Assembly: GCA_947459205.1 (NCBI GenBank)
Contig: CANHCR010000007.1
Coordinates: forward strand, 1 to 64,000
Source of the DNA: Caryophanales bacterium
GTDB lineage: Bacteria; Bacillota; Bacilli; Paenibacillales; CANHCR01
DNA: 64,000 nt
Direction: 5' to 3'
Part shown: positions 1,066-39,859 of the stretch, one piece after another
Layout: each line of letters begins with the position of its first letter
How positions within the stretch are numbered: position 1 is the stretch's first letter
Program-made: the position numbers and the translations under genes
Notes under the pieces: model-generated
The model's input: the letters and a program-made list of their open reading frames with translations, nothing else
Told to the model about the DNA's origin: nothing
The model's database searches: none

Positions 1066-3579
1066 TTAGTTAACGGTTACGACCGGCAATTCGAACGATG
1101 TTGCAAAGTTCGGGTTGACCGGACGGACGCGTACCGTGAAGTGCGGACCGTGCTTCAAATGCGCAGGCACTTGTGCAGTGAATTTGTAGGTGTGGTAGGC
1201 GACGCGCTCTGGATCTTGCATCGTCACGATGACCGGATTCCAACCGCCGTCTTTTTCTTCGTAATAGATGATTTCGACGACCGTATCTTGCAACCAAATC
1301 GGTCCGTAGTTGAGCGTCGCAGTCACGCGTTTGGTCGGCACTGGCGTCGGGCTCGACATGCGATCATCGACAGAAATGATGTGTACATGGTGCCAATTTT
1401 CCGAGATGAAACGCTTGTAATCCGCAATTTTGTTCGACAAATCGTAGTTGCTTTCTTTGAAACGATTGCCGCGTTGAATCGTCGGAATGTATAGGTCGCG
1501 CGTATAGTCTTGCACCATGCGTTGCGTACTATACAATGGCGCCAACGTTTTGATTGACGATTTGACATGCTTCATCCAGTTTTCTTGTTGATCATAGTAG
1601 AGCGGAACGATGATGCTCTCCAATTTTTCGTACATGTTAATGCTGTTTTGCAAACTTTGCGTTTCCACATCGAGTTCAAGGTCAACGGTGTCGATTGCCC
1701 AACCGTTTTCACCGTTGTAGCCTTCTTCCCACCAACCGTCAAGGATACTGAAGTTGCAAACGCCGTTCATCGCTGCTTTTTGACCGCTCGTACCGCTTGC
1801 TTCATATGGGCGGAGCGGGTTGTTCAACCAAATGTCGACACCTTGGACAAGATGACGCGCCATGTTCATGTCGTAGTTTTCAAGCAACACGACCTTGCCG
1901 CGGAATTCATCCAGTTGCGAAATACGATAAATTTCTTTGATCAACTCTTGACCTGGCTTATCGGCAGGGTGAGCCTTGCCACCAAATACGAACTGTACCG
2001 GTTTTGTCGGGTGGTTGACGATTTTGCTTAGTCGCTCCAAATCGCGGAACAAGAGCGTTGCACGCTTATATGTTGCAAAGCGGCGCGCAAAACCAATCGT
2101 CAATGCTTTCGGATTCAAATAGGTATCCGCTTCTTCGATTTTCGCTAGATCGAAACCGTTGCGACGGCGATGCTCTTTGATGTTGTTACGAGCAAATGCA
2201 ATCATTTCAACTTTCAATTGCTCATGCACAGTGCGGTACTCTTCGTCCGGCATTTTGTCAATAGCCGCCCACATTTTTCCGTCTTCGTGCTTTTTCGTCC
2301 AGTTTTTCGGCAAATATTTGCCGTACAACTCGATCAACGATGGTGCAAGCCATGTCTCCAAGTGAACACCGTTCGTGATGTGACCAATCGGCACTTCGTC
2401 TGTCGGAATGCTGCCGTGGAAATGGCGGAACATCTCGCGCGAGACGTGACCATGCAATTTACTCACACCGTTGCGCAATCCAGAAAGGTTCAGCGCCAAG
2501 TGCGTCATGTTGAATGTGTAATTTTCGCGGTTGATACCGAGATTGATGAACGAATCGCGACCGTTCAATTCATGATATACATTGTGGAAATAGTGATCAA
2601 TCAATTCAACGTTGAACGCATCGTGACCAGCAGGAACTGGCGTGTGCGTTGTGAAAATCGTACTTGCTTTTATTGCTTCAACAGCTGCAGCGTAAGATAC
2701 ACCAGAGCGCACCAACTCAAGCAAACGCTCGACGTTAATGAACGCAGCATGGCCTTCGTTGATGTGGAATGCATTCGGGTGAATTTCCAAGGCGCGCAAC
2801 GCTTTGATGCCGCCCATACCGAGCAACACTTCTTGGGCGATCCGCGTTTCGTGGTTGCCACCGTACAATTGCGCCGTCAGCGCACGATCCCAGTCGGAGT
2901 TGCGCTCGATGTCCGCATCCATCAAGAATACGGAAATACGACCTACTTTCACTTCCCAAATCTTGAGATACACACTGCGACCTGGTAAGTCAACGCCGAT
3001 AAAAATCTCATGTCCATAACGGTCAAGCGCAGGTTTCACCGGAATTTTGCTGAACTCATAATTCAGCTGCTCCGCATGTTGCTGTCCGACACCGTCGAAC
3101 TTCTGGTTGAAGTAACCTTTTTTGTAAAGCAAACCGATACCGATAAACGGCAAACCCAAATCGCTCGCTGATTTACAGTGGTCACCAGCAAGAATGCCGA
3201 GACCGCCAGAGTAAATCGGCAATGACTCGTGATAACCGAACTCCGCCGAGAAGTAAGCAATTCTGTGTTGCTCGTTGTTCGGATAGTTTTGCTTGAACCA
3301 AGTCGAATCATTCATGTATGATTCCCAAGCTTTGATGACCGAATTGTATATTTTAGCGAACGCTTTATCTTTTTCTAACGCGCTCCATCGTTCTGCGTCC
3401 ACTTCCTGCAACAAACGCACAGGGTTGTGGTACACTTCATTCCATTTTTGCGGATCCACCATTTTGAATAGTTGAATCGCATCATTGTTCCAGCTGAACC
3501 ACATGTTGTAACTGAGGTCAGCCAACTTCGCGAATTTCTCCGGAAGCACGATTGCATTGTTGTTCCCCACTTCAAACAC
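1066..3579 (-). CDS. Alpha-glucan (glycogen/maltodextrin) phosphorylase
   Basis: Catalyses phosphorolysis of alpha-1,4-glucans to glucose 1-phosphate. The 837 residues match the alpha-glucan family phosphorylase group (TIGR02094 type), which differs from classical GlgP/MalP. The N-terminal part (LADLSYNMWFSWN, residues 18-30) is the DUF3417-like region of this group, followed by RIAYFSAEFGYHESLPIYSGGLG, which contributes to the substrate site. The pyridoxal phosphate lysine lies in GTSGQKAAMNG at about residue 601, and the last 110 residues form a beta-rich C-terminal domain. The GTG start at 3579 has AAGGTGG in front of it; no ATG alternative is as well placed. The gene may help use the maltodextrins released by the two amylases encoded nearby, which is an inference from context. 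Confidence 0.9.
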   Translation of the reverse strand: MFEVGNNNAIVLPEKFAKLADLSYNMWFSWNNDAIQLFKMVDPQKWNEVYHNPVRLLQEVDAERWSALEKDKAFAKIYNSVIKAWESYMNDSTWFKQNYPNNEQHRIAYFSAEFGYHESLPIYSGGLGILAGDHCKSASDLGLPFIGIGLLYKKGYFNQKFDGVGQQHAEQLNYEFSKIPVKPALDRYGHEIFIGVDLPGRSVYLKIWEVKVGRISVFLMDADIERNSDWDRALTAQLYGGNHETRIAQEVLLGMGGIKALRALEIHPNAFHINEGHAAFINVERLLELVRSGVSYAAAVEAIKASTIFTTHTPVPAGHDAFNVELIDHYFHNVYHELNGRDSFINLGINRENYTFNMTHLALNLSGLRNGVSKLHGHVSREMFRHFHGSIPTDEVPIGHITNGVHLETWLAPSLIELYGKYLPKNWTKKHEDGKMWAAIDKMPDEEYRTVHEQLKVEMIAFARNNIKEHRRRNGFDLAKIEEADTYLNPKALTIGFARRFATYKRATLLFRDLERLSKIVNHPTKPVQFVFGGKAHPADKPGQELIKEIYRISQLDEFRGKVVLLENYDMNMARHLVQGVDIWLNNPLRPYEASGTSGQKAAMNGVCNFSILDGWWEEGYNGENGWAIDTVDLELDVETQSLQNSINMYEKLESIIVPLYYDQQENWMKHVKSSIKTLAPLYSTQRMVQDYTRDLYIPTIQRGNRFKESNYDLSNKIADYKRFISENWHHVHIISVDDRMSSPTPVPTKRVTATLNYGPIWLQDTVVEIIYYEEKDGGWNPVIVTMQDPERVAYHTYKFTAQVPAHLKHGPHFTVRVRPVNPNFATSFELPVVTVN

Positions 3580-3618
3580 CCACCTTAACTAAGTTGAAAA
3601 TTATTGCAGTTGACTGCT

Positions 3619-4644
3619 TCATGTCGGGTTGAATACCGGCCACAAGCAAAGCGCAATCAACGAAGCGATGATTCCGTGAAATACTCGAGATACGGCAAAA
3701 GGCAGATAACGTACAGCGCTATCTTGAAGTAGACTCATAATCTGTGCATGCACTGATAGTCCTGCCCATGATAAGATGAAGCCGGTCGCTGCAACTTGGA
3801 GCGCAGTTGGTGCTCCATGAGCTTCGGCGGCCGTACGGATGCCGAGTGTGACCTCGAAAAGCCCATTTGTCAAAGCCAATGCGAGCGATACGGAATCGTT
3901 CGAAATGACCGACAAAAGCAAATAAACAATACTATAAAAATAATTCATTATTTGTACCGATGTCAATAGCGAGATGTATACACAAAAAAACACGACGAGT
4001 CCGCCAATCATGAAAACAAGCATCAATGATTGCTCGAACGCTTCATATAGCACTTGCCAAATGCCGCGTTTTTCAAATATTTTATGGCTTCGCCAAGCCT
4101 CTCGCAAGCGTTCATAAAGTTTTTTTGTTACGGCCATTCGCGTGTTTTTATTGATGAAACGAGCTTGTAAAAAAGCAAGAATGATCGACGCGCCGTAATG
4201 TGCAATGAGTAAAATGATGGCGATTTCTTGATTGTGAAATAAGCCGACAGCGACAGCACCGATGATGAAAATCGGATCGGCTGTCGTGGCTGTTCCGACT
4301 AGACGTTCTGCTTCAGAACGCGTTAGTTCGGCGGAACGGTATAGTTGTGCCGTCAGTTTGGCGGCAACCGGATAGCCAGCGAGAAAGCCGAGAACCATCA
4401 CGAAACCTGCTGAACCAGGCAGGCGAAACAATGGGCGCATCACGGGTTCGAGTAAGGCGCCAAGCAAACGAACGACGCCTAGACCGAGTAACAGTTCGCT
4501 GAGAATAAAAAAAGGGAACAGCGCGGGCAGTAAAATGTCGCGCCAAATGAGCAATCCTCGGACAGCAGCTTGATGCGACTGCTCCGGAAAAATCACCCAG
4601 GCAATAATGAGCGGCATGATGCCGATGAAATAAATGAGCGCCAA
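3619..4644 (-). CDS. ylbJ: Sporulation integral membrane protein YlbJ
   Basis: A 341-residue polytopic membrane protein with about eight hydrophobic segments and the gate-like motifs of the nucleoside-recognition family. Typical YlbJ stretches are LLPALFPFFILSELLLGLG and GFLAGYPVAAKLTAQLY near the N-terminus and a central TTADPIFIIGAVAVG. In Bacillus subtilis, YlbJ is made in the mother cell under sigma-E and is needed for spore cortex formation; that role is carried over here by homology. The start at 4644 is an ATG with AGGACG-type sequence before it. It is divergent from the DUF2225 gene and lies upstream of the phosphorylase on the same strand with a 39-bp gap. Confidence 0.9.
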   Translation of the reverse strand: MALIYFIGIMPLIIAWVIFPEQSHQAAVRGLLIWRDILLPALFPFFILSELLLGLGVVRLLGALLEPVMRPLFRLPGSAGFVMVLGFLAGYPVAAKLTAQLYRSAELTRSEAERLVGTATTADPIFIIGAVAVGLFHNQEIAIILLIAHYGASIILAFLQARFINKNTRMAVTKKLYERLREAWRSHKIFEKRGIWQVLYEAFEQSLMLVFMIGGLVVFFCVYISLLTSVQIMNYFYSIVYLLLSVISNDSVSLALALTNGLFEVTLGIRTAAEAHGAPTALQVAATGFILSWAGLSVHAQIMSLLQDSAVRYLPFAVSRVFHGIIASLIALCLWPVFNPT

Positions 4645-4728
4645 GGCACGTCCTCCGAAAAAATGTAAATCTCACCTAAATATATGTGCTATAATTGAAA
4701 TTATTTGTCATCGTTTGGAGGTATGAAA

Positions 4729-5388
4729 ATGCTTGAACCGTTATATCAAAAAACAATCGTATGCGATCAGTGCAAAGCGCAGTTTATAACTAGCAAAGTT
4801 CGTTCCAGTACGGTGCGCGTCGCTCGGACTGACAGCGACTTTTGTGCACATTACAAAGACATTAATCCGAATTTTTACGAAGTGCGAGTTTGTCCGAAAT
4901 GCGGCAACGCGACTACAGAGAAATTCAGCGTGCCATTTAACAATGTTTCTCGCACGATATTTCTTGATAAAATCGGCAATCAATGGAGGACCAAAGATTT
5001 TGGCGGAGAGCGAACGAAAGAAGAAGCCTTGCAGGCATATAAGTTGGCGCTCATCAATGCGCAAATCAGAGGTGAACGTGACGTCATCATTGCGCAGTTG
5101 TGCCATCATATCGGTTGGCTCTATCGTTACGATGAAAGGTTTGAAGAGGAAAAGCGATTTCTCGGTCTAGCACTCAAAAGTTATATGCAAGCGTATGTCA
5201 ATGAAAAGTCGGATATTCATCTGGCAAAATTAATGTATGTCATCGGCGATCTGCATGCGCGCACAGGTGATTCGGGCGAGGCGATTCGCTGGTTCGGTAA
5301 AGTGATCAATGACAAAACGGCTGTCGATCCTGCTTTGGTGCAAATGGCACGAGACCGTTGGGCAGAGTTGCGCACCCCACCAGCTTAA
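4729..5388 (+). CDS. DUF2225 family protein, zinc-ribbon plus helical repeats
   Basis: A 219-residue cytoplasmic protein with an N-terminal zinc-ribbon: CDQC at residues 12-15 and CPKC at about 57-60. The remainder is helical and looks like TPR repeats (LCHHIGWLYRYDERFEEEKRFLGLAL and LMYVIGDLHARTGDSGEAIRWFGKV). Members of DUF2225 are common in Firmicutes and have no settled function. I place the start at the ATG at 4729 because GGAGG (4717-4721) is 7 nt upstream; the ATG at 4723 is too close. TATAAT at 4690-4695 is a plausible -10. It is divergent from ylbJ. Confidence 0.8.
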   Translation: MLEPLYQKTIVCDQCKAQFITSKVRSSTVRVARTDSDFCAHYKDINPNFYEVRVCPKCGNATTEKFSVPFNNVSRTIFLDKIGNQWRTKDFGGERTKEEALQAYKLALINAQIRGERDVIIAQLCHHIGWLYRYDERFEEEKRFLGLALKSYMQAYVNEKSDIHLAKLMYVIGDLHARTGDSGEAIRWFGKVINDKTAVDPALVQMARDRWAELRTPPA

Positions 5389-5432
5389 TTGATCGTTCAA
5401 ATTTTATGTCTAATTGTGAACTTTTTGTGAAA

Positions 5433-5446
5433 TGAAAACGATTGCA
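5433..5446 (+). promoter_or_regulatory. Candidate CcpA-binding cre site before the amylase genes
   Basis: TGAAAACGATTGCA agrees at 13 of 14 positions with the cre consensus TGWAANCGNTNWCA; only position 12 (G instead of W) differs. It lies about 100 bp upstream of two starch-degrading enzymes, a class often under carbon catabolite control in Bacilli. A possible -35/-10 pair (TTGTTT near 5474, TATAAA near 5495) has a short 15-bp spacer, so the promoter itself is uncertain. Confidence 0.55.
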
Positions 5447-5543
5447 CGAAATTTTATCGTTCCAATCGTGGAATTGTTTTGGGCTATGTTTTAATATAAA
5501 ATCAGATACAATGCCTATAATTACAGAAAAGGATGGAGTCACT

Positions 5544-8500
5544 ATGTACAATCTCAGATGGCAAAACATGAAATTTGCGTTAATCGCGCTTTTGGTCGTC
5601 ACAATGCTGACTACCGGCTTGCCGATTCCGCAGTCCGTTCAACCTGTTGTCCAGACAGCGCAGGCGACAACGGCAGACACCCCATTTTCGTGGGACAATG
5701 CAACTGTTTACTTTGTTATCATCGATCGTTTTTTCAACGGCAACACTTCGAATGACACCTCGTATGGTCGCAGAAAAGTGGACACGAGCGGGAAAAACAT
5801 CGGAACTTTTCATGGCGGTGACGTGAAAGGGCTTACACAGAAACTGAATGAAAACTATTTCACCAATCTCGGTGTGAATGCGATCTGGATTACTGCACCA
5901 TATGAGCAAGTACATGGTTGGGTATCTGGTGGCGGTGCGGGTGACTTTGCCCACTACGCATACCATGGCTACTACCCACTTGATTGGACAGCGATGGATA
6001 AAAACTTCGGTACTGTCGAAGAGTTCCGTGAGTTCGTAGATAAAGCGCATTCACAAGGCATCCGCGTCGTGATGGACGTTGTCTTGAATCATGTCGGTTA
6101 CGGTACGCTAGCAGACATGGCGGAATACAAATTTGGCGGCAATGATGCCATCAACAACGGAGCGACATGGGATCCGGTACAATTCGGATTGAGTTACACA
6201 GGCATGCACGGGATTATCGATTACCGTTCTAGCGGTGCTTGGGACGGTTGGTGGAGACAGTGGGTACGTGCTGGTTTGCCAGGTTACACACCGGCTCCAT
6301 CCCTTGGTCAAGATGAAATCAAAGGGCAACTTGCCGACCTCGCCGATGTCCGCACAGACTTGACAACTAGCGTCGGCCTGGCACCGATTCTGAATACAAA
6401 ATGGAATAAAGAAAAATCAGGTTTTGACGCATGGATTGTACCGAAAGCAAAGGACTTGCGTAAAGATTTGAACATAGCCCCTGCTGATTACATCATCAAG
6501 TGGCTATCTGCTTGGGTTGAAGAATTCGGGATTGACGGTTTCCGTGCGGATACGGCGAAGCACGTTGAACTGTGGCGTTGGAAGCAACTTGGTGAAGAAG
6601 CAGATCAGGCGCTTAAAAGATGGCGTGCAGCCAATCCGAACAAACCGGGCGCGAAATGGACCGATGACTTCTGGATGACAGCCGAAGTGTTCGGACTTGG
6701 TATGGGCAAAAACAACTACCACACAAGTGGCGGTTTTGACTCAACGATTAACTTTGATTTCCAAGGCGTTCCGAACAACATCAATGGGATTGACAGTACC
6801 TTCAGTTCCTATGCTAATCAAGTTAACAACAATGGTGGATGGAATGTACTCAACTACATCTCTTCGCACGACACATCGCTCTATAATCGTAACAATCTGA
6901 TGAATGGAGCAACTGCACTCTTGTTGGCGCCAGGCGCCGCTCAAATATTCTATGGTGATGAGACTGGTCGAGCGTTTGGTGCTACAGGTTCGGACAAAGA
7001 CCAAGGAACGCGTTCTGCAATGAATTGGGATAATTTCAGTACAAACCTGCTTCAGCATTGGCAACGTATTGGTACTTTCCGCGCGAAGCACCTTTCAGTA
7101 GGTGCTGGTGCTCATAAAAAAATTGCTGATTCACCTTATACTTTCTCTCGGACGTATAGCAAAAACGGTATCAACGATAAAGTCGTTGTGGCGATCGGTG
7201 CTTCTGGCAATACAACCATCAATGTTGGCGGTGTGTTTGCAAATGGCACGAAAGTTCGTGACCACTATACAAACCGTGAGGCGACTGTAACGAACGGTGC
7301 TGTATCGATTCAGGCTAGTACAAACGGCGTAACGTTGCTTGAAGAAGTTAGCGGCGGTGGCGGTGGTGGTGGCGGTGGCACTGGTACGAAACCAGCTGCA
7401 CCTGCAGGTTTGAATAGTACGGCGAAAACTACCAATTCCGTTACATTAGGCTGGACTGCTGTGTCGGGAGCAACGAAATATAATGTGTATCGCAATAATG
7501 TCAAAGTCGGCGAGAATACGACGACAACGTACACAGATAGCAACTTGACAGCGGCTACAGCGTATTCCTACACCGTATCTGCAGTTAATGCTTCCAATGT
7601 GGAATCTGATCGATCGACGGCGGTATCCGTAACGACGAATGCTTCGAGCGGCGGCGGTGGCGGTGGCGGCACTGTAACACCTCCAGTTCCTCCGACGAAT
7701 GTAGACACTGAAAACCAGACTAGAAATACAATCACTATCAACTGGACGGCGCCTGCTGGCATCACCGTGAAAGCTTACAACATATACCGCGACGGTAAAA
7801 AAGTTGGCACGACAGCAAGTACGAAATTTACCGACACTGGCTTGCAACCGGACACAGACTACGCTTACCAAGTGAGTACAGTCAATAGCATAGACACGGA
7901 ATCCAACCAATCTGAAGTCATTTATGTGACGACGTTGCCGGGTAGCGGCGGGAACAGCAACGTTACATCGCCGATTTACAATGATGTTTGGGACGAAGAA
8001 AAATATGAAGTGGTAGATATTGACACAGCTCGTCTCGATGCTGCCATCGAAGCAGCGGACAGCGTGCGCATTCCTTACGTGATTTTTGAAGGTTTTGACG
8101 GTGGCGGCGGTAGTGGTGGTGGCGACACTGGAGGCGGTGGCACAGGTGGAGGCGGTGGCACACCGACCGAACCACCAACCGTTTTGGCTTCACCGCAAGG
8201 CGGAACATTTAACACAGAAGAAACTTCAGTCACATTAAACTTGACGAATGCAACATCTGGTAAGTATACAATTGACGGCTCTGATCCGAAAGACAAAGGT
8301 ACAACTTTTAATAACGGAGATACGATTACATTCGGTGCGACCATCAATCCTGGCGAATCGTTGACATTGAAATTGTACACAGCAAACGGTGCTTTAACAG
8401 CGACCAACTCCTATACATTCACAAAAGAAGCAAAACCTACGGGATTGCGCGTTTATTTCAAAAAACCAGCAAGTTGGGCTACGCCGCAACTTTACTACTA

Positions 8501-9977: not shown

Positions 9978-12900
9978 GTGACATTCAACAATCCAATACA
10001 TGTCGCAAAAAAATCAATCGTATTTATCGTGATACTGGCAATGCTTGTCAGTTCCATCCCCGCTTTGATGATACCTTCAACGGCAGAGGCACAAGCGGTC
10101 ACAAAAGCAACACCATTTTCTTGGGATAACGCAACCGTCTACTTCGTCATGACGGACCGATTTTGGGATGGCGATCCGAGCAACAACCACTCATATGGAC
10201 GCGAACTTGATCAGAATGGAAAACCATACCCAGGATATCAAGAAAAAATCGGTTCGTTTCATGGTGGTGACCTTAAAGGTTTGACCTTGAAATTGAACGA
10301 AGGTTATTTCAATGAATTGGGTGTCAATGCGCTGTGGATCACATCGCCGCTTGAGCAAATTTACGGATACGTTGGCGGATTTAGTTTCCGCCACTACGGT
10401 TATCACGGTTACTTTCCGCTTGATTTTACGGAAATTGACAAAAACATGGGTTCGGTCGAGGATTTGCGCACGTTCATTGACACTGCGCACTCCAAGGGCA
10501 TTCGCGTCTTGTTCGACGTAGTCATCAACCACGTCGGTTATGGTGATCTGATTACGATGGACCGCCTCGGGTTTGGTGACCCGAAGAGCGCGATGTTCGA
10601 TAACAAGATGATGAGTTGGCAGGAGTATTATTACAGAGACTCATTCAATAGCACGAACAAGTCGGAATGGTCTGCGCATTTTGATCATTACACCAAATTT
10701 ATCGGCAATACAGAAACGAGTGCTTGGGCGCAATGGTGGGGTCCGGACTGGATGCGGGCCCACAATACACCAGGTTATGCACCTTGCGGAACGGGCGAGT
10801 TGGATATGTGTTTGGCGAACTTGCCAGACTTCAAAACCGAGTCAACCAAAGAGGTTGGTCTTCCGCCAATCATGTTAAACAAATGGGATGCGGCTAAGGA
10901 AGCGAAAGAAATTGCTGAACTCGATGCATTTTTCAAACGCACCGGCAAGAAACGCACCGTTGCCAATCACATGATCAAATGGATTACCGATTGGGTTCGT
11001 GAATATGGCGTGGATGGGTTCCGCCTTGATACGGCGAAGCACGTTGAAAACCATGTGTGGGCTGACTTGAAGGATGAGGCGACAATCGCCTTGCGCGAAT
11101 GGAAGAAAAACAACCCGACGAAAAAAATCGATGATACTGATTTCTGGATGACTGGTGAGGTATTCGGTCATAAAGTCGAAAAGACGGCTTATTTTACCGA
11201 AGGCAAGTATGATTCGATTATCAACTTCGACTTCTTGTGGGACAACGTTCCAGCGATGGTTCCGAATCAGATGAGCAAACTGGATGCGAAGTACGTCGAC
11301 TATGCACAAAAGATGAACAACGACCCAACGTTTGCTGTGCTAAATCAATTGTCGTCACATGACACTACGCTATACGGCACTGATTATGCGCAGGCGCAGA
11401 AAAACAATAGTGCAGGAACCATTAATCTGAACGAGCGTAGCAATAATATTAATGCGGCGACTACTTTGATGCTCGCGCCGGGTGCTGCACAGATCTATTA
11501 TGGTGATGAGTCGGGGCGTCCGTATGGACATTATCCGGATAGTTTCGCTGATCGCGGAATACGTTGTTTTAGAGCGGACCGAGCGCCGGCAGAACAAGCA
11601 TGTGACCTGGAGGCAGGCACACGTTCGCGGATGAACTGGAACTCACTCAATCAAAACTATCTCGATCATTGGCGCATCATGGGTAAATTCCGTGCCAATC
11701 ATATCGCGATTGGAGCGGGACAACATCGCAAACTGCAAGACGGTCCATATGCATTCTCGAGAACGTACAACCAAGACGGCATTAACGATACGATTGTAGC
11801 GGCGATTGAAGCGAAGGGTGCATCGACAATTGATGTCTCGACGGTTTGGTCAAATGGAACGTTGTTGCGCGACTACTACACCGGCAGTACTGCCACGGTT
11901 CAGAATGGTAAAGTTACATTTACAGCTGGCAAACACGGTGTCATTTTGATTGAAAATGCAAATGCTCCAGCCCCGCAAACTGCGGTGTTTGCTTCGCCGC
12001 CAGGCGGAGATTTCACGTCTTCGACACAGCAAATTAAGTTGGTGCTTCGCAATGCAACGAGCGGCAAATATACGATTGACGGACGCGATCCGAAGACAAG
12101 TGGTGTAAACTTTGTTAGCGGCGATGTCATTACGATTGGTTCAACGATGAAACTTGGAGATTCGCTCAATCTGCGAATGTATACAAATGGCTCTAGAGGC
12201 GAAGATACGGAAAGTTACATTTTCAAAAAAATGAAGCGCAATCAGTTGACGATTCACTTCAAGAAGCCGGCTGATTGGGGCACACCGCAACTTTTTTACT
12301 ACGATGCGAAACCAAGTGCTCCAGGCGTTAGTTGGGACGGCGCTCCTTCGATGGTGGAGAGCGGTAACGGCTACTTCACGTTTACGATTCAAGGTGCCAA
12401 CACTGCGACGATTTTATTCAAAGATCGTAGCGGAAAGCAATTACCGGCTCCAGGACAAGCAGGATTTGCACGCACGATTGAAGGTTATTATGACAATGGA
12501 ACGTGGAAAGACGGGAATCCAAATGGTAAGCCGATCGACGATCCAGGTGATACTGGACCTGCGCCAGAACCACCGCCTGCAGTCAACCCTGCTTTGCCTA
12601 TTCCTTTGAATGTGAAATTGACGAAACAGGAATTGACCTCGTTGTCGTTTACATGGCCTGCAGTTGATAGCAAGGATGTAGTGGGATACAACATTTACCG
12701 TAATGGTGGAAAAGTTGGAACAACGACCGGTACCACGTTTACCGATAGTGGCCTATCCGTTGATACCGATTACCAGTATGCTGTTCATGCACTCGATGCA
12801 TCTGGGAAAGTATCTGAACCGTCTGAACACATGATTGTATCTACGCTCGCTGATGGCGATGTCGGAACGATTGAAGATCCAGACGTTCCAATTGAAAATC

Positions 12901-36522: not shown

Positions 36523-36526
36523 AATA
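36499..36526 (+). promoter_or_regulatory. Sigma-K promoter of gerE
   Basis: AC (36499-36500), a 17-bp spacer and CATAAAATA (36518-36526) match the sigma-K consensus AC-N16/17-CATANNNTA. In B. subtilis gerE is transcribed by sigma-K, so the position is as expected. Confidence 0.7.
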
Positions 36527-36582
36527 TGACACTGTACCCACAGCCCTTGTTAGGGAAATCAGAGGCAAGGAGGGGTGATGGG

Positions 36583-36816
36583 TTGGGCAGTCATTTGGAA
36601 GAAGAAACATTTGGTTTGCGGATTTTGACGTTACGTGAACGCGAAGTGTTTGAGTTGCTCGTGCAAAATCTGACGACGCGTGAAATTGCCGGCAAAATGT
36701 TTATCAGCGAAAAGACCGTTCGAAATCACATCAGCAATGTGATGCAGAAGCTGAACGTGAAAGGGCGCTCGCAAGCGGTCGTGGAGCTGATACGGCTGGG
36801 CGAGTTGAAGATTTGA
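36583..36816 (+). CDS. gerE: Spore coat regulator GerE (LuxR-type HTH)
   Basis: A 77-residue DNA-binding protein consisting of one LuxR/FixJ helix-turn-helix. The stretch LTLREREVFELLVQNLTTREIAG and ISEKTVRNHISNVMQKL, then KGRSQAVVELIRLGEL, are almost the same as B. subtilis GerE (74 residues) as I recall it. GerE activates and represses late coat genes in the mother cell. I choose the TTG at 36583 because AGGAGGGG lies 7 nt upstream; the ATG at 36526 would give a non-homologous 19-residue leader. The last 91 bp of this gene recur twice downstream (37661 and 38476). Confidence 0.92.
   Translation: MGSHLEEETFGLRILTLREREVFELLVQNLTTREIAGKMFISEKTVRNHISNVMQKLNVKGRSQAVVELIRLGELKI
36725..36743 (+). 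repeat. Inverted repeat at the head of the duplicated gerE tail
   Basis: ATCACAT-CAGCA-ATGTGAT: two 7-bp arms around a 5-bp centre, within the codons for the GerE recognition helix. It marks the exact left edge of the segment that is repeated downstream. In the downstream copies the right arm is intact, and the left arm is partly replaced (AACACAT). This is the geometry of a tyrosine-recombinase core site, but it could be chance. Confidence 0.6.
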
Positions 36817-36817: not shown

Positions 36818-36834
36818 TATTAAGCGAAATTTTG

Positions 36835-36864
36835 ATCCGTTACATGAAAATGTAGCGGATTTTT
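36835..36864 (+). terminator. Terminator downstream of gerE
   Basis: ATCCGTTACAT pairs with ATGTAGCGGAT (one G-U pair) across a four-base loop and is followed by Ts. A different terminator follows the second gerE tail. Confidence 0.85.
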
Positions 36865-36902
36865 CACATTTAACATGAAATACGTGGTATGATTGAACAT
36901 AG

Positions 36903-36947: not shown

Positions 36948-37214
36948 ATGGAAATATCAAGATTAAGTTCAAAAGGTCAAGTGACGATTCCGAAAAGCAT
37001 TCGAGATATGTTGAATTTAAGTGAAGGTGATCGCGTCGCATTTGTGGTGGAGCAAGGGAAAGTGGTGGTTACCAAGGCAAGTTTGATTGCGCTCCAAGAG
37101 TTGCAACAAGCGCTAAGTCAGGATTTGGCCATTCGTGGAGAAACTGAAAAAGATGTCATGAAGGAATTGTCTTTGGTGCGGGAGGAACTTTCGGGTGAGC
37201 GATACAAAACGTAG
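36948..37214 (+). CDS. AbrB/MazE-type antitoxin
   Basis: An 88-residue protein with an N-terminal swapped-hairpin AbrB DNA-binding domain (ISRLSSKGQVTIPKSIRDMLNLSEGDRVAFVVEQGKVVV, residues 3-41) and a helical C-terminal tail (residues 45-88) that should bind the toxin. The ATG follows GGAGGGG by 8 nt. It overlaps the PIN toxin gene by 20 bp, the usual arrangement for a type II toxin-antitoxin pair. The module lies between gerE and the second gerE tail. Confidence 0.88.
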   Translation: MEISRLSSKGQVTIPKSIRDMLNLSEGDRVAFVVEQGKVVVTKASLIALQELQQALSQDLAIRGETEKDVMKELSLVREELSGERYKT

Positions 37215-37644
37215 TCGGTTGCGTGTCTTCGTAGACACAAATGTCATCATTTCTGCGATTTTATCTCAAACATCGGTGAGTGCAAGGTTTTTGCATTTTG
37301 TCATTTTAGAGCATGAATTGCTTATTTGCAGTTACACACTTGAAGAAATTCATCGAGTGTTTGAACGTAAATTTCCGGATCGAATATCACTATGGCAGAC
37401 ATTTTTATCTGCATTAAAGTATGAATTGATCGAAACGCCGAAGGAATTAAGCAGAGTAAACTCGGTTCAGATAAGAGATGTTCATGATGTTCCAATTTTA
37501 GGTTCAGCTTTACTCTGTAAACCTGATTATCTGGTGACGGGTGATCATGATTTTTTTACGGAAGAGATCATGAGCAAATTTCAAGTCAATTCACCCGCGA
37601 TTTTTTTAGAAAAGTATAGTAATCAAAATGGTTCAATGAACTAG
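37195..37644 (+). CDS. PIN-domain toxin (putative RNase)
   Basis: A 149-residue PIN-domain protein of the TIGR00305 type (putative toxin component of an AbrB-PIN pair). The acidic catalytic residues are visible: Asp14 in RVFVDTNVIISAIL, the glutamate in YTLEEIHRVFERKF, and the aspartates in RDVHDVPILGSALLCKPDYLVTGDHDFF. It would act as a Mg-dependent RNase held in check by the antitoxin. Start is GTG 37195 after GGAGGAAC. The reading frame appears intact. Confidence 0.87.
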   Translation: MSDTKRSRLRVFVDTNVIISAILSQTSVSARFLHFVILEHELLICSYTLEEIHRVFERKFPDRISLWQTFLSALKYELIETPKELSRVNSVQIRDVHDVPILGSALLCKPDYLVTGDHDFFTEEIMSKFQVNSPAIFLEKYSNQNGSMN

Positions 37645-37660
37645 ATTCATGTTTTCAAAA

Positions 37661-37751
37661 CACATTAGCAATGTGATGCAGAAGCTGAACGTGAAAGTGC
37701 GCTCGCAGGCGGTCGTGGAGCTGATACGGCTGGGCGAGTTGAAGATTTGAG
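37661..37751 (+). repeat. Second copy of the gerE 3' tail
   Basis: 91 bp, three differences from the gerE end: ATC to ATT and CAA to CAG, both silent, and GGG to GTG (Gly to Val). The frame is open to the TGA. With the preceding bases it makes a 33-codon frame from the ATG at 37649 (MFSK, then HISNVMQKL and on to GELKI), but no ribosome-binding site is seen. Confidence 0.95.
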
Positions 37752-37776
37752 ATGTGATTGAGAATGGTGAGATCAG

Positions 37777-37819
37777 ACCGCATCTGTCGGAGCGAGTGCT
37801 TTGGTGGATGCGGTTTTTT
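37777..37819 (+). terminator. Terminator after the second gerE tail
   Basis: ACCGCATC pairs with GATGCGGT and is followed by six Ts. This may be the original gerE terminator displaced by the first toxin-antitoxin insertion. Confidence 0.7.
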
Positions 37820-37841
37820 GAGTAAATTTTGCACATAATTA

Positions 37842-37882: not shown

Positions 37883-38149
37883 ATGCCACATATTAGACCG
37901 ATTACCGATTTAAGAAACACCAATGAGATTTCAGAACTGTGTCACAAACTCGATGAACCAATATTTATTACGAAAAACGGATATGGGGACTTGGTTGTGA
38001 TGAGTATCGAGACATATGAACGTCAATTAGCGATGGTCGAGCTTTATAAAAAGCTGGCTGAGGCTGAACAAGAGGTTGCTGAAGGCAAACCTCCTATTCC
38101 AGCAGAGGCCGTATTTGAAAAAATCATGAGAGAGTATGGAAGAAAATAA
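37883..38149 (+). CDS. Phd/YefM-type antitoxin
   Basis: An 88-residue antitoxin. The N-terminal half (RPITDLRNTNEISELCHKLDEPIFITKNGYGDLVVMSIETYERQL) is the Phd/YefM DNA-binding domain; the C-terminal half is a charged helix that would wrap the toxin. AGGGTG precedes the ATG by 6 nt. It overlaps the toxin gene by 14 bp. It appears intact, while its partner toxin carries a stop codon. Confidence 0.9.
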   Translation: MPHIRPITDLRNTNEISELCHKLDEPIFITKNGYGDLVVMSIETYERQLAMVELYKKLAEAEQEVAEGKPPIPAEAVFEKIMREYGRK

Positions 38150-38456
38150 GTATCAGGTCGAATTTACTCCTAAAGCGATTGCTGACCTAGAACAAATTTA
38201 TTTATACATTGCTAACGAGTTATTTAATCCTGATGCAGCTCAACGGTTGCTGGACAAATTTGAAAAGAAGATCATGATTCTCAGAAGTTATCCTTTCTCA
38301 AGTAACATCGTACAGGACAGTTTTTTGCGAAAAAAGGGTTATCGAAAATTAGTGGTCGACAATTATTTGGTGTTTTATTTAGTTGATGAAATTGAAAATA
38401 AGGTGTAAATCATGAGAGTTTTATATGGTGCACAGCAATATAAACGATACTTGTGA
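38136..38456 (+). pseudogene. ParE/RelE-family toxin with an in-frame premature stop
   Basis: The frame starts at 38136 and codes for 90 residues typical of ParE/RelE toxins (VEFTPKAIADLEQIYLYIANEL, LLDKFEKKIMILRSYPFSS, KGYRKLVVDNYLVFYLVDE), then meets TAA at 38406-38408. Reading on in the same frame gives IMRVLYGAQQYKRYL and a TGA at 38454-38456. That is the normal last strand of this family (VRVLYGAQQY is a hallmark), so the TAA is a nonsense change, most simply from a Tyr codon (TAT/TAC). The truncated product loses about 16 residues of the core and is probably inactive. Confidence 0.85.
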
Positions 38457-38475
38457 TCTAGTTATACTTTCAAAA

Positions 38476-38554
38476 CACATCAGCAATGTGATGCAGAAAC
38501 TGAACGTGAAAGGGCGCTCGCAGGCGGTCATGGAGTTGATTCGGTTGGGCGAGT
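38476..38554 (+). repeat. Third copy of the gerE 3' tail
   Basis: 79 bp with six differences from gerE, of which five are silent (AAG/AAA, CAA/CAG, CTG/TTG, ATA/ATT, CTG/TTG) and one is Val to Met. Similarity stops within GAGT, before the last four codons. The left flank shares TTTCAAAA with the second copy. Confidence 0.93.
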
Positions 38555-38646: not shown

Positions 38647-38823
38647 ATGATCAAAGACGAAGTTAAAAAAATGATCGATAACCTGCCTGGCGATTGTACG
38701 TTAGAGGAAATCCAATACACTCAATATGTTCAAGCGAAACTGTTAAAAGCGCTAGATGACGTTGAACACGGCCGGACGCTCGATGCGGATGAGATGATCA
38801 AAAAATTTTCACAAATATTTTGA
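38647..38823 (+). CDS. Orphan addiction-module antitoxin-like small protein
   Basis: A 58-residue ORF: MIKDEVKKMIDNLP, then TLEEIQYTQYVQAKLLKALDDVEHGRTLDADEMIKKF. The pattern of an alpha-helical repeat followed by D-x-E-x-GR-(T)-x-x-x-E resembles antitoxins that partner RelE/ParE toxins (TIGR02574-like). A TATAAT at 38613-38618 and GATGAGG upstream suggest expression. No toxin gene follows: the next 70 bp are non-coding and then an unrelated gene starts. It may be the remainder of a third toxin-antitoxin insertion. Confidence 0.65.
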   Translation: MIKDEVKKMIDNLPGDCTLEEIQYTQYVQAKLLKALDDVEHGRTLDADEMIKKFSQIF

Positions 38824-38899
38824 CTACCCCCCTCAAAATTTGAAACGCTTACGAATGTTTTATTAGAAACAAAAAACGAGATGAAAAGGAATGATGAAG

Positions 38900-39859
38900 A
38901 TGAAGATGAAGATGATGAAAACAGTGCTTGCCACCACGATTACGGTCGGTTTGTTGCTCGTACCGTTCAGCGGAGCGTTGGCTGGCGATAGTAAATCCCG
39001 TTCGAGCAAAGGGGTATTGACAGCGGAGCAGAAAGCAGCAAAAGAAGCTGCGGAACAAGCGAAGGATGCAAGGGAAGCGGCGAAGAAAGCGGCTGAGCAG
39101 GCGAAAGAGGCTGCGAAAAAGGCGAGAGAAGCTGAATCAAAAGCGAAAAAAGAGAAAGATGAGTCTGAAGATGCAGATGATGATGCCGATGAAAAAGCAA
39201 AAGAGGCAGCAAAGAAAAATAAAGATAAAGTAGCGAAGGCGGAAGCGGCAAAAGCAAAGGCGGAAGCGGAAAAACAAAAGAAAGAAGCAGAAGCAGCTGC
39301 AAAGGCTGCTGAGCAAGCAAAGAAAGCGGAATTGAAAGCTGCTTATGAGAAATTAAAAGAAGAAGCAAAAGCGGCGAACGCAAATGCTGAGGCGAAAGGA
39401 AAGGAATTGGCTCAGTTAGAAAAAGAAGCGGTCTCAGAAGCGAGCGAAGAGTTAGTGGCTGCACAAGAGGCGGCGAAACAAGCGCAAGTAGCGGCAGATG
39501 CGAAGGTTGCTGAATTAAAGGCGCTGAAACTGGCGGCGAAAGAAGCGAAAGAGGCGGCTGAACTCGAGAAGAAAGCAGCGAAAGCGAAGAAATCTGAAAT
39601 GAAAGCAGCGAAGAAAGCGGCTGAGAAAGCGAAAGAAGAAGCAGAGAAAGCGGCTGAAGCAGCCAAAAAAGCTAGCAAGAAAGCAAAGGAAAAAAATGGC
39701 GTAGCTGAGGCTGCAAAAGCGAAAGTGAAGAAGGAAAAAGCGGAGCGTGAGGCGGCGAAGAAAGCGGCTGAAGTGGCAAGAAAAGCGAAGAAGGAAGCGG
39801 AGGAAGCAGCTGAGAAAGCGGCTGAACTCGTGCCGGCAACACCTCCTGTTGCTTCGTAA
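38900..39859 (+). CDS. Secreted Ala/Lys/Glu-rich coiled-coil protein
   Basis: About 319 residues. A signal peptide (MKMKMMKTVLATTITVGLLLVPFSGALAG) is followed by some 280 residues made almost only of Ala, Lys and Glu in heptad-like order (EAAKKAAEQAKEAAKKAREAE and similar), with an acidic patch (DESEDADDDADE) at about residue 88. It should form a long charged helix or coiled coil outside the cell. No enzymatic motif is seen and I do not recognise a family. The start is uncertain: several ATGs are stacked at 38891, 38894, 38900 and 38906; 38900 is 9 nt from AAAAGGA. A terminator follows. Confidence 0.75.
   Translation: MKMKMMKTVLATTITVGLLLVPFSGALAGDSKSRSSKGVLTAEQKAAKEAAEQAKDAREAAKKAAEQAKEAAKKAREAESKAKKEKDESEDADDDADEKAKEAAKKNKDKVAKAEAAKAKAEAEKQKKEAEAAAKAAEQAKKAELKAAYEKLKEEAKAANANAEAKGKELAQLEKEAVSEASEELVAAQEAAKQAQVAADAKVAELKALKLAAKEAKEAAELEKKAAKAKKSEMKAAKKAAEKAKEEAEKAAEAAKKASKKAKEKNGVAEAAKAKVKKEKAEREAAKKAAEVARKAKKEAEEAAEKAAELVPATPPVAS

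Follow-up and report, generated by a model that had tools for sequence, protein, structure and literature searches.

In spore coat formation, the small gene gerE acts as a key switch; genetic elements are known that split it and are excised during sporulation. The window analysed here, a stretch of 64,000 nt from a Caryophanales bacterium, contains a complete gerE gene followed by two displaced copies of its own 3′ end. How did a whole gene come to be trailed by two surplus ends, each separated from the next by unrelated genes?

Only a single full copy of gerE is present in the 2.52 Mb assembly, and the displaced ends (termed tail 2 and tail 3) are the sole further matches to the gene there besides hits at chance level. 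Proceeding 3′ from gerE, an AbrB/MazE–PIN gene pair (36948–37644) is followed by tail 2, a Phd–ParE/RelE pair (37883–38408) and tail 3. The features of the locus are as follows.

36526–36816, plus strand: gerE, a complete ORF for a LuxR/GerE HTH regulator (Pfam GerE, 3.3e-21, amino acids 33–86)
36727–36738, plus strand: integration core CACATCAGCAAT, codons H-I-S-N of gerE, which match the gin core CATCTCAAA (PMC5595907) and the attL/attR junctions of relatives
36834–36865, plus strand: terminator hairpin of the current gerE end (fold −17.7 kcal/mol, z = −4.9)
36948–37214, plus strand: AbrB/MazE-type antitoxin of insert 1 (Pfam MazE_antitoxin, 4e-12; TIGR01439)
37195–37644, plus strand: PIN-domain toxin of insert 1 (Pfam PIN_3, 2e-11; TIGR00305 above cut-off)
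37653–37660, plus strand: element-end-like arm TTTCAAAA at the left edge of tail 2, the same in both tails and unlike gerE, resembling the attR arm consensus TACTTCAAAC
37661–37750, plus strand: tail 2, a displaced gerE 3′ end of 90 nt including the stop codon (75/78 identity with gerE)
37775–37816, plus strand: tail 2 terminator hairpin, unrelated to that of gerE by UTR comparison (−28.9 kcal/mol for 37751–37824, z = −5.1)
37883–38149, plus strand: Phd/YefM antitoxin of insert 2 (Pfam PhdYeFM_antitox, 5.5e-9)
38136–38408, plus strand: ParE/RelE toxin of insert 2 (Pfam ParE_toxin, 4e-13; TIGR02385)
38468–38475, plus strand: element-end-like arm TTTCAAAA at the left edge of tail 3, the same in both tails, compared with the attR arm consensus TACTTCAAAC
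38476–38554, plus strand: tail 3, a displaced gerE 3′ end whose final codons, stop codon and terminator are gone (72/78 identity with gerE; no terminator fold)

The four genes located between the junctions are all toxin–antitoxin genes, and phage genes are absent from both intervals as judged by ORFs and Pfam matches. Specifically, the adjacent and overlapping antitoxin and toxin genes match type II family models (Pfam, NCBIfam) and are predicted toxin–antitoxin pairs, and each compact interval carries exactly one. The intervals have a GC content of 37%, compared with 48.6% for the window, which places them among its lowest 1%. Directly 3′ of tail 3, AT-rich DNA contains a 58-amino-acid ORF (38647–38823) that could be the leftover of an older insert; its identification as an antitoxin was dropped after family searches gave no match. 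Positions 38891–39859 encode a 322-amino-acid protein rich in Ala, Lys and Glu, which resembles a coiled coil and starts with a signal-like sequence; its sole match is weak and SMC-like.

The first codons of both tails are H-I-S-N, with the sequence CACAT(C/T)AGCAAT. The gin element of Bacillus cereus uses the gerE codons Ile-Ser-Asn 47–49 with the core CATCTCAAA (PMC5595907), and integration of the Paenibacillus larvae phage Xeni_IDv2 in gerE was observed to duplicate 9 bases (PMC12453123). When the window was examined for gin-type junctions, both tails proved to begin at the same gerE codons as the gin core. As judged from sequence, the tail breakpoints coincide with a known site-specific attachment site within gerE, and an attB-like site lies intact within the complete gene. 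The 8 nt preceding CACAT, which the initial annotation did not mention, read TTTCAAAA in each tail, as opposed to TTCGAAAT in gerE. On scoring with an arm matrix built from other genomes, each tail arm ranks in the top 1.6% of window positions, compared with 16% for gerE itself. Of the imperfect inverted-repeat pair expected at the ends of a gin-type element, only the attR-side arm is present in the window; its match to the order consensus appears moderate, and the arms of the two tails are not necessarily independent of each other.

Neither a recombinase nor a recombinase fragment was found in the window, where the inserts consist of toxin–antitoxin pairs only. The sole PF07508 large serine recombinase of the whole genome lies on another contig (C2) and is ∼24% identical to gerE-type recombinases, and we did not find it convincing as an enzyme acting in trans on this locus.

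When 399 genomes of the order were searched for TACTTCAAACCACATNTC with one mismatch allowed, 31 places were identified, and about half of the 30 that were retrieved as loci lie exactly at a gerE junction. These junction loci form two classes: those in which gerE is split (class A) and those in which a complete gerE is accompanied by a displaced tail (class B).

Class A includes L158 (15.4 kb), L161 (15.7 kb), L164 (18.7 kb), L165, L166 and L168 (2.6 kb). The left junctions read gerE5′-AACCACATCTCCAA.GAGATGTGGTTTGAAGTAC and the right junctions GTACTTCAAACCACATCTCCAA-gerE3′, from which it follows that the element ends make a palindromic attP. Class A elements encode large serine recombinases that are 48–66% identical to the L161 or L168 protein, and the L168 element holds little beyond its recombinase gene. 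The best NCBIfam hits of the L168 recombinase are CcrB and CcrC (2e-33; 116 bits, where the CcrB cut-off is 900). The recombinase of phage PBL1c is 50% identical to that of L168, and a matching attP, GTATTTCAAACCACATCTCCAATATAACATGTTTTGAAACAC, is located directly after its gene. Furthermore, in viral contigs L176 and L180 the same phage end is fused to a gerE 3′ end; a protein search of the viral contigs for a recombinase yielded none. The L161 element also encodes reverse-transcriptase-like and tyrosine-recombinase-like proteins (3334–4677 and 10364–11371; judged from translation). Another locus, L170 (G381), has 3.8 kb (∼3515–7304) flanked by the same inverted arms and located beside sequence encoding NHISKVMQKLEAKNR; this stretch is possibly an element of the same kind in another LuxR-type gene.

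Class B comprises about ten genomes (L055, L068 (= L159), L078 (= L160), L046, L155 (partial), L156, L162, L163, L167, L171 and L172). Their tails mostly lie behind the arm GTACTTCA/AACCACAT, and the opposite arm is absent at all class B loci examined. Junctions are degenerate in L046, L172 and for one tail each in L162 and L167, the latter two of which carry more than one tail. Recombinase fragments persist in L167, L171 and L172, and in L171 the new gerE end and its terminator lead directly into a recombinase gene at about codon 95. The L163 remnant matches DNA just 5′ of the L158 recombinase gene together with the right end of the L158 element, the gene itself having been lost. At three of these loci (L163, L167 and L171), the tail and the DNA downstream of it are collinear with uninterrupted gerE loci (L012, L029 and L024), so it is the tail that represents the original gerE end, and the end now attached to the gene arrived later. 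A tail-like copy occurs within 6 kb downstream in 6 of 80 named gerE loci, and in none of the 80 is one found upstream or inverted.

Several other arrangements were noted at these loci. A homologous aspartyl-protease-like module of ∼0.7 kb is located just before the tail in L055, L155, L162 and L167, which belong to different families. Short internal gerE pieces in L118 (G013; ∼1930–2010 and 3386–3477 in gerE orientation) and in L182 are bounded on the left by the QDKTT codons and on the right by the HISN core, with a displaced tail beyond; gerE may thus harbour a second integration site upstream of the HISN core. Members of the P. tyrfis group (L045, L047, L048 and L050) share their gerE end up to the terminator, after which the sequences are wholly different until shared DNA resumes ∼1–5 kb further on. 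On this sequence comparison, the DNA right behind the gerE terminator is a hot spot for gene content. A candidate tail in L047 was rejected, because this second gerE copy (∼8149–8358, ∼2 kb downstream) is frameshifted and reaches further 5′ than the core. The second match in L102 is an ordinary LuxR protein.

The coding differences between the tails and gerE, on which the initial annotation had concentrated, were recounted over the 78 nt that are comparable in all three copies. Tail 3 differs from gerE in six codons (gerE/tail: AAG/AAA, CAA/CAG, GTG/ATG, CTG/TTG, ATA/ATT and CTG/TTG), and all of these changes except the Val-to-Met replacement at GTG/ATG are silent. Two of the three differences in tail 2 are silent (ATC/ATT and CAA/CAG), and the third (GGG/GTG) replaces Gly with Val. 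Both tails have CAG where gerE has CAA. These counts agree with those given previously. Under a null model in which the same 78 nt receive random point mutations with transition weights of 1–8, a silent fraction of 21–28% is expected. The probability under this model is 0.002–0.011 for tail 3 (5/6 silent), 0.14–0.22 for tail 2 (2/3 silent) and 0.0005–0.004 for both tails pooled (7/9 silent). The silent excess is therefore beyond chance for tail 3 and for the pooled tails, whereas the earlier claim of a non-random pattern does not extend to tail 2 alone. Moreover, changes that arose on the gerE branch would be silent in any case, and the silent excess taken by itself is to that extent a weaker argument.

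Both replacements affect strongly conserved positions. Tail 2 has lost Gly13, a glycine shared by all 114 other gerE genes, and tail 3 has lost Val19, which is valine in 111 and isoleucine in 3 of these 114. Replacements at an invariant and a near-invariant residue suggest that constraint was relaxed after displacement. Together, these changes point to tail copies that diverged mainly under constraint and later lost it. The proposal that the tails are former working gerE ends is thus supported, given their mostly silent divergence and the retention by tail 2 of its stop codon and a strong terminator (z = −5.1).

Strong terminator hairpins follow both gerE (z = −4.9) and tail 2 (z = −5.1), and folding of the RNA downstream of tail 3 revealed no terminator. 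The sequences 3′ of the stop codons of gerE and tail 2 are unrelated, with a similarity score equal to the median of shuffled sequence. In contrast, all 42 gerE pairs with 75/78 identity elsewhere in the order have recognisably related UTRs, as does every pair at 74/78 (n = 10) and 76/78 (n = 17). This mismatch indicates that the two ends stem from gerE loci with different surroundings, and it disfavours a simple local duplication. The gene end and tail of most relatives share their UTR up to the terminator, unlike those in the window, and the route by which gerE was completed again may therefore differ here. Because the duplicated segment of relatives stops at the terminator T-run, an RNA or cDNA source of the new gerE end was considered. 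We set this idea aside because divergence after the terminator is also seen in relatives with no detected tail, and the terminator may merely bound the conserved sequence.

The initial annotation had favoured recombination between lineages over local duplication, and had proposed a tree of the 79-bp segment as a check. Its case against local duplication is borne out by the unrelated UTRs of gerE and tail 2, but the tree does not place the tails in different known lineages, and the known attachment site that provides the mechanism had been missed. In the tree, built from the comparable 78 nt, the three copies form one clade (support 0.81). They are mutually closest (71–75/78), and the other sampled gerE genes reach at most 65/78, such that donors cannot be named from this sampling; these distances account for the lack of a lineage signal. 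The CAG codon common to both tails, which had been cited in favour of recombination between lineages, is a single shared silent change and constitutes weak evidence.

We consider it likely that the window has the anatomy of class B and carries two stacked scars of past insertions into gerE, the gene having since been made whole. Direct support for this interpretation comes from the breakpoints, the recurrence of the arrangement in relatives, the att structure, the UTR mismatch and the base composition. The gerE codons H-I-S-N would serve as a recurrent attB for elements with phage-type or Ccr-like large serine recombinases, and at least two such elements would have entered gerE in this lineage, presumably through serine recombinase action in this genome. 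Each integration would sever the gerE 3′ end and leave it downstream behind the element end sequence as an attR scar. Subsequently, gerE would be completed by another 3′ end, fused to the remains of the element. This end might have been supplied by gerE DNA from another strain or by an element that had itself captured a gerE end. In class B the attB in gerE is intact once more and would be open to the next element, which could lead to stacking.

By this history, tail 3 would have been displaced first; the end that replaced it would have been displaced next to become tail 2, and the present gerE end would be the third. Tail 3 is read as the older because it has six differences and an eroded end, compared with three differences and an intact end for tail 2. 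Each tail would have acquired its mostly silent changes as a working gerE end, and the two replacements would postdate displacement. The mobile bodies would have decayed to one AT-rich toxin–antitoxin pair per interval. Retention of these pairs would fit addiction, because recombination between the repeats would delete a pair. Similarly, with its glycine lost, tail 2 could yield a defective gerE if insert 1 were excised through the repeats, and this might lock the insert in place. The uninterrupted gerE loci compared here come from other genomes of the order, and the sampled gerE genes are all distant.

The tandem arrangement could also have arisen without gerE ever being broken. A small non-autonomous unit, made up of a gerE 3′ end with its terminator in addition to cargo and an element arm, might be inserted in trans at the gerE core, through recombination between a circle bearing an attR-type site and the chromosomal attB. 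Each newly arrived cassette would shift its predecessors downstream, in the manner of SCC islands or integron arrays, and a recombinase-less family would thereby insert in tandem at one codon while the gene works throughout, with toxin–antitoxin pairs as an anchor. A gene with displaced tails is indeed the expected product of such a reaction, the window intervals are compact with one toxin–antitoxin pair each, and short tail-bearing intervals with homologous aspartyl-protease cargo occur across several species (L055, L155, L162 and L167). However, large serine integrases do not usually catalyse an attR × attB reaction. The new gerE end of L171 joins the middle of a recombinase gene (∼codon 95), which resembles a secondary join more than a cassette boundary. 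Also, the gene end and tail of relatives mostly group within their own genome in trees, with no clearly foreign gerE end among them. We regard mobile cassettes as an unlikely, though not negligible, origin of the tails.

Duplication of the gerE 3′ end in place, combined with unrelated insertions of toxin–antitoxin pairs between the copies, would explain why gerE, tail 2 and tail 3 are mutually closest. It is very improbable when considered against the coincidence of both tail breakpoints with the integration core, the unrelated UTRs of gerE and tail 2 where all comparable pairs are related, the mostly silent changes and the recurrence of the same arrangement with element arms in distant relatives. 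Nearly as improbable is homologous recombination alone, between strains that differ in content behind gerE and with site-specific recombination at no stage. Such exchange would leave no second truncated gerE end at a fixed codon behind a conserved arm, even though DNA after the gerE terminator is highly variable among close relatives, which speaks for this explanation.

Stacked integration scars thus remain the interpretation that we prefer. Our search of a set of open-access papers found gin and phage integration in gerE, but not a re-completed gerE with displaced ends. The loci described here would represent another outcome of such integration, in which gerE is whole again with a clean, open attB, and the displaced end stays behind together with a portion of the element. 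They suggest how a host may escape from dependence on the excision of the element itself, and they preserve a legible history of repeated invasion at a single codon. The silent-change pattern of the tails would date from the time when they served as working gene ends, and re-completion with its scars may help to explain why the region behind gerE is a hot spot of gene content in this order.

Among the closest known systems is the gin (gerE-intervening) element of B. cereus ATCC10987, with recombinase GirC and factor GirX, which splits gerE, encodes serine recombinases and is excised during sporulation (PMC5595907). The window resembles gin in its use of the same gerE codons as the attachment site, its short core and its non-prophage cargo. 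It differs in that gerE (36526–36816) is complete rather than split, the inserts carry no serine recombinase and two scars are stacked. For the temperate phages of P. larvae (PBL1c, Lily, Likha and Xeni_IDv2), the PBL1c attP located beside the recombinase gene matches the scar arms of relatives. These phages have ∼40 kb genomes that interrupt gerE, whereas the window intervals have no phage genes. SCC elements use serine recombinases to insert at one gene, specifically within the last bases of rlmH, and form composite islands and recombinase-less remnants while the target gene stays intact. The window shares with SCC a one-gene target that is kept intact and remnants without a recombinase, and the L168 recombinase best matches CcrB/CcrC, although far below the cut-off. 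In contrast to the SCC site, the gerE site lies ∼90 nt before the stop codon and a whole gene end is displaced; furthermore, the window has no ccr gene and its target is not rlmH. Finally, the late sporulation genes sigK and spsM harbour serine recombinase elements, skin and SP-beta, respectively (PMC5595907, PMC4191935). Those two genes are split until excision occurs, whereas gerE here is whole with a scar left behind.
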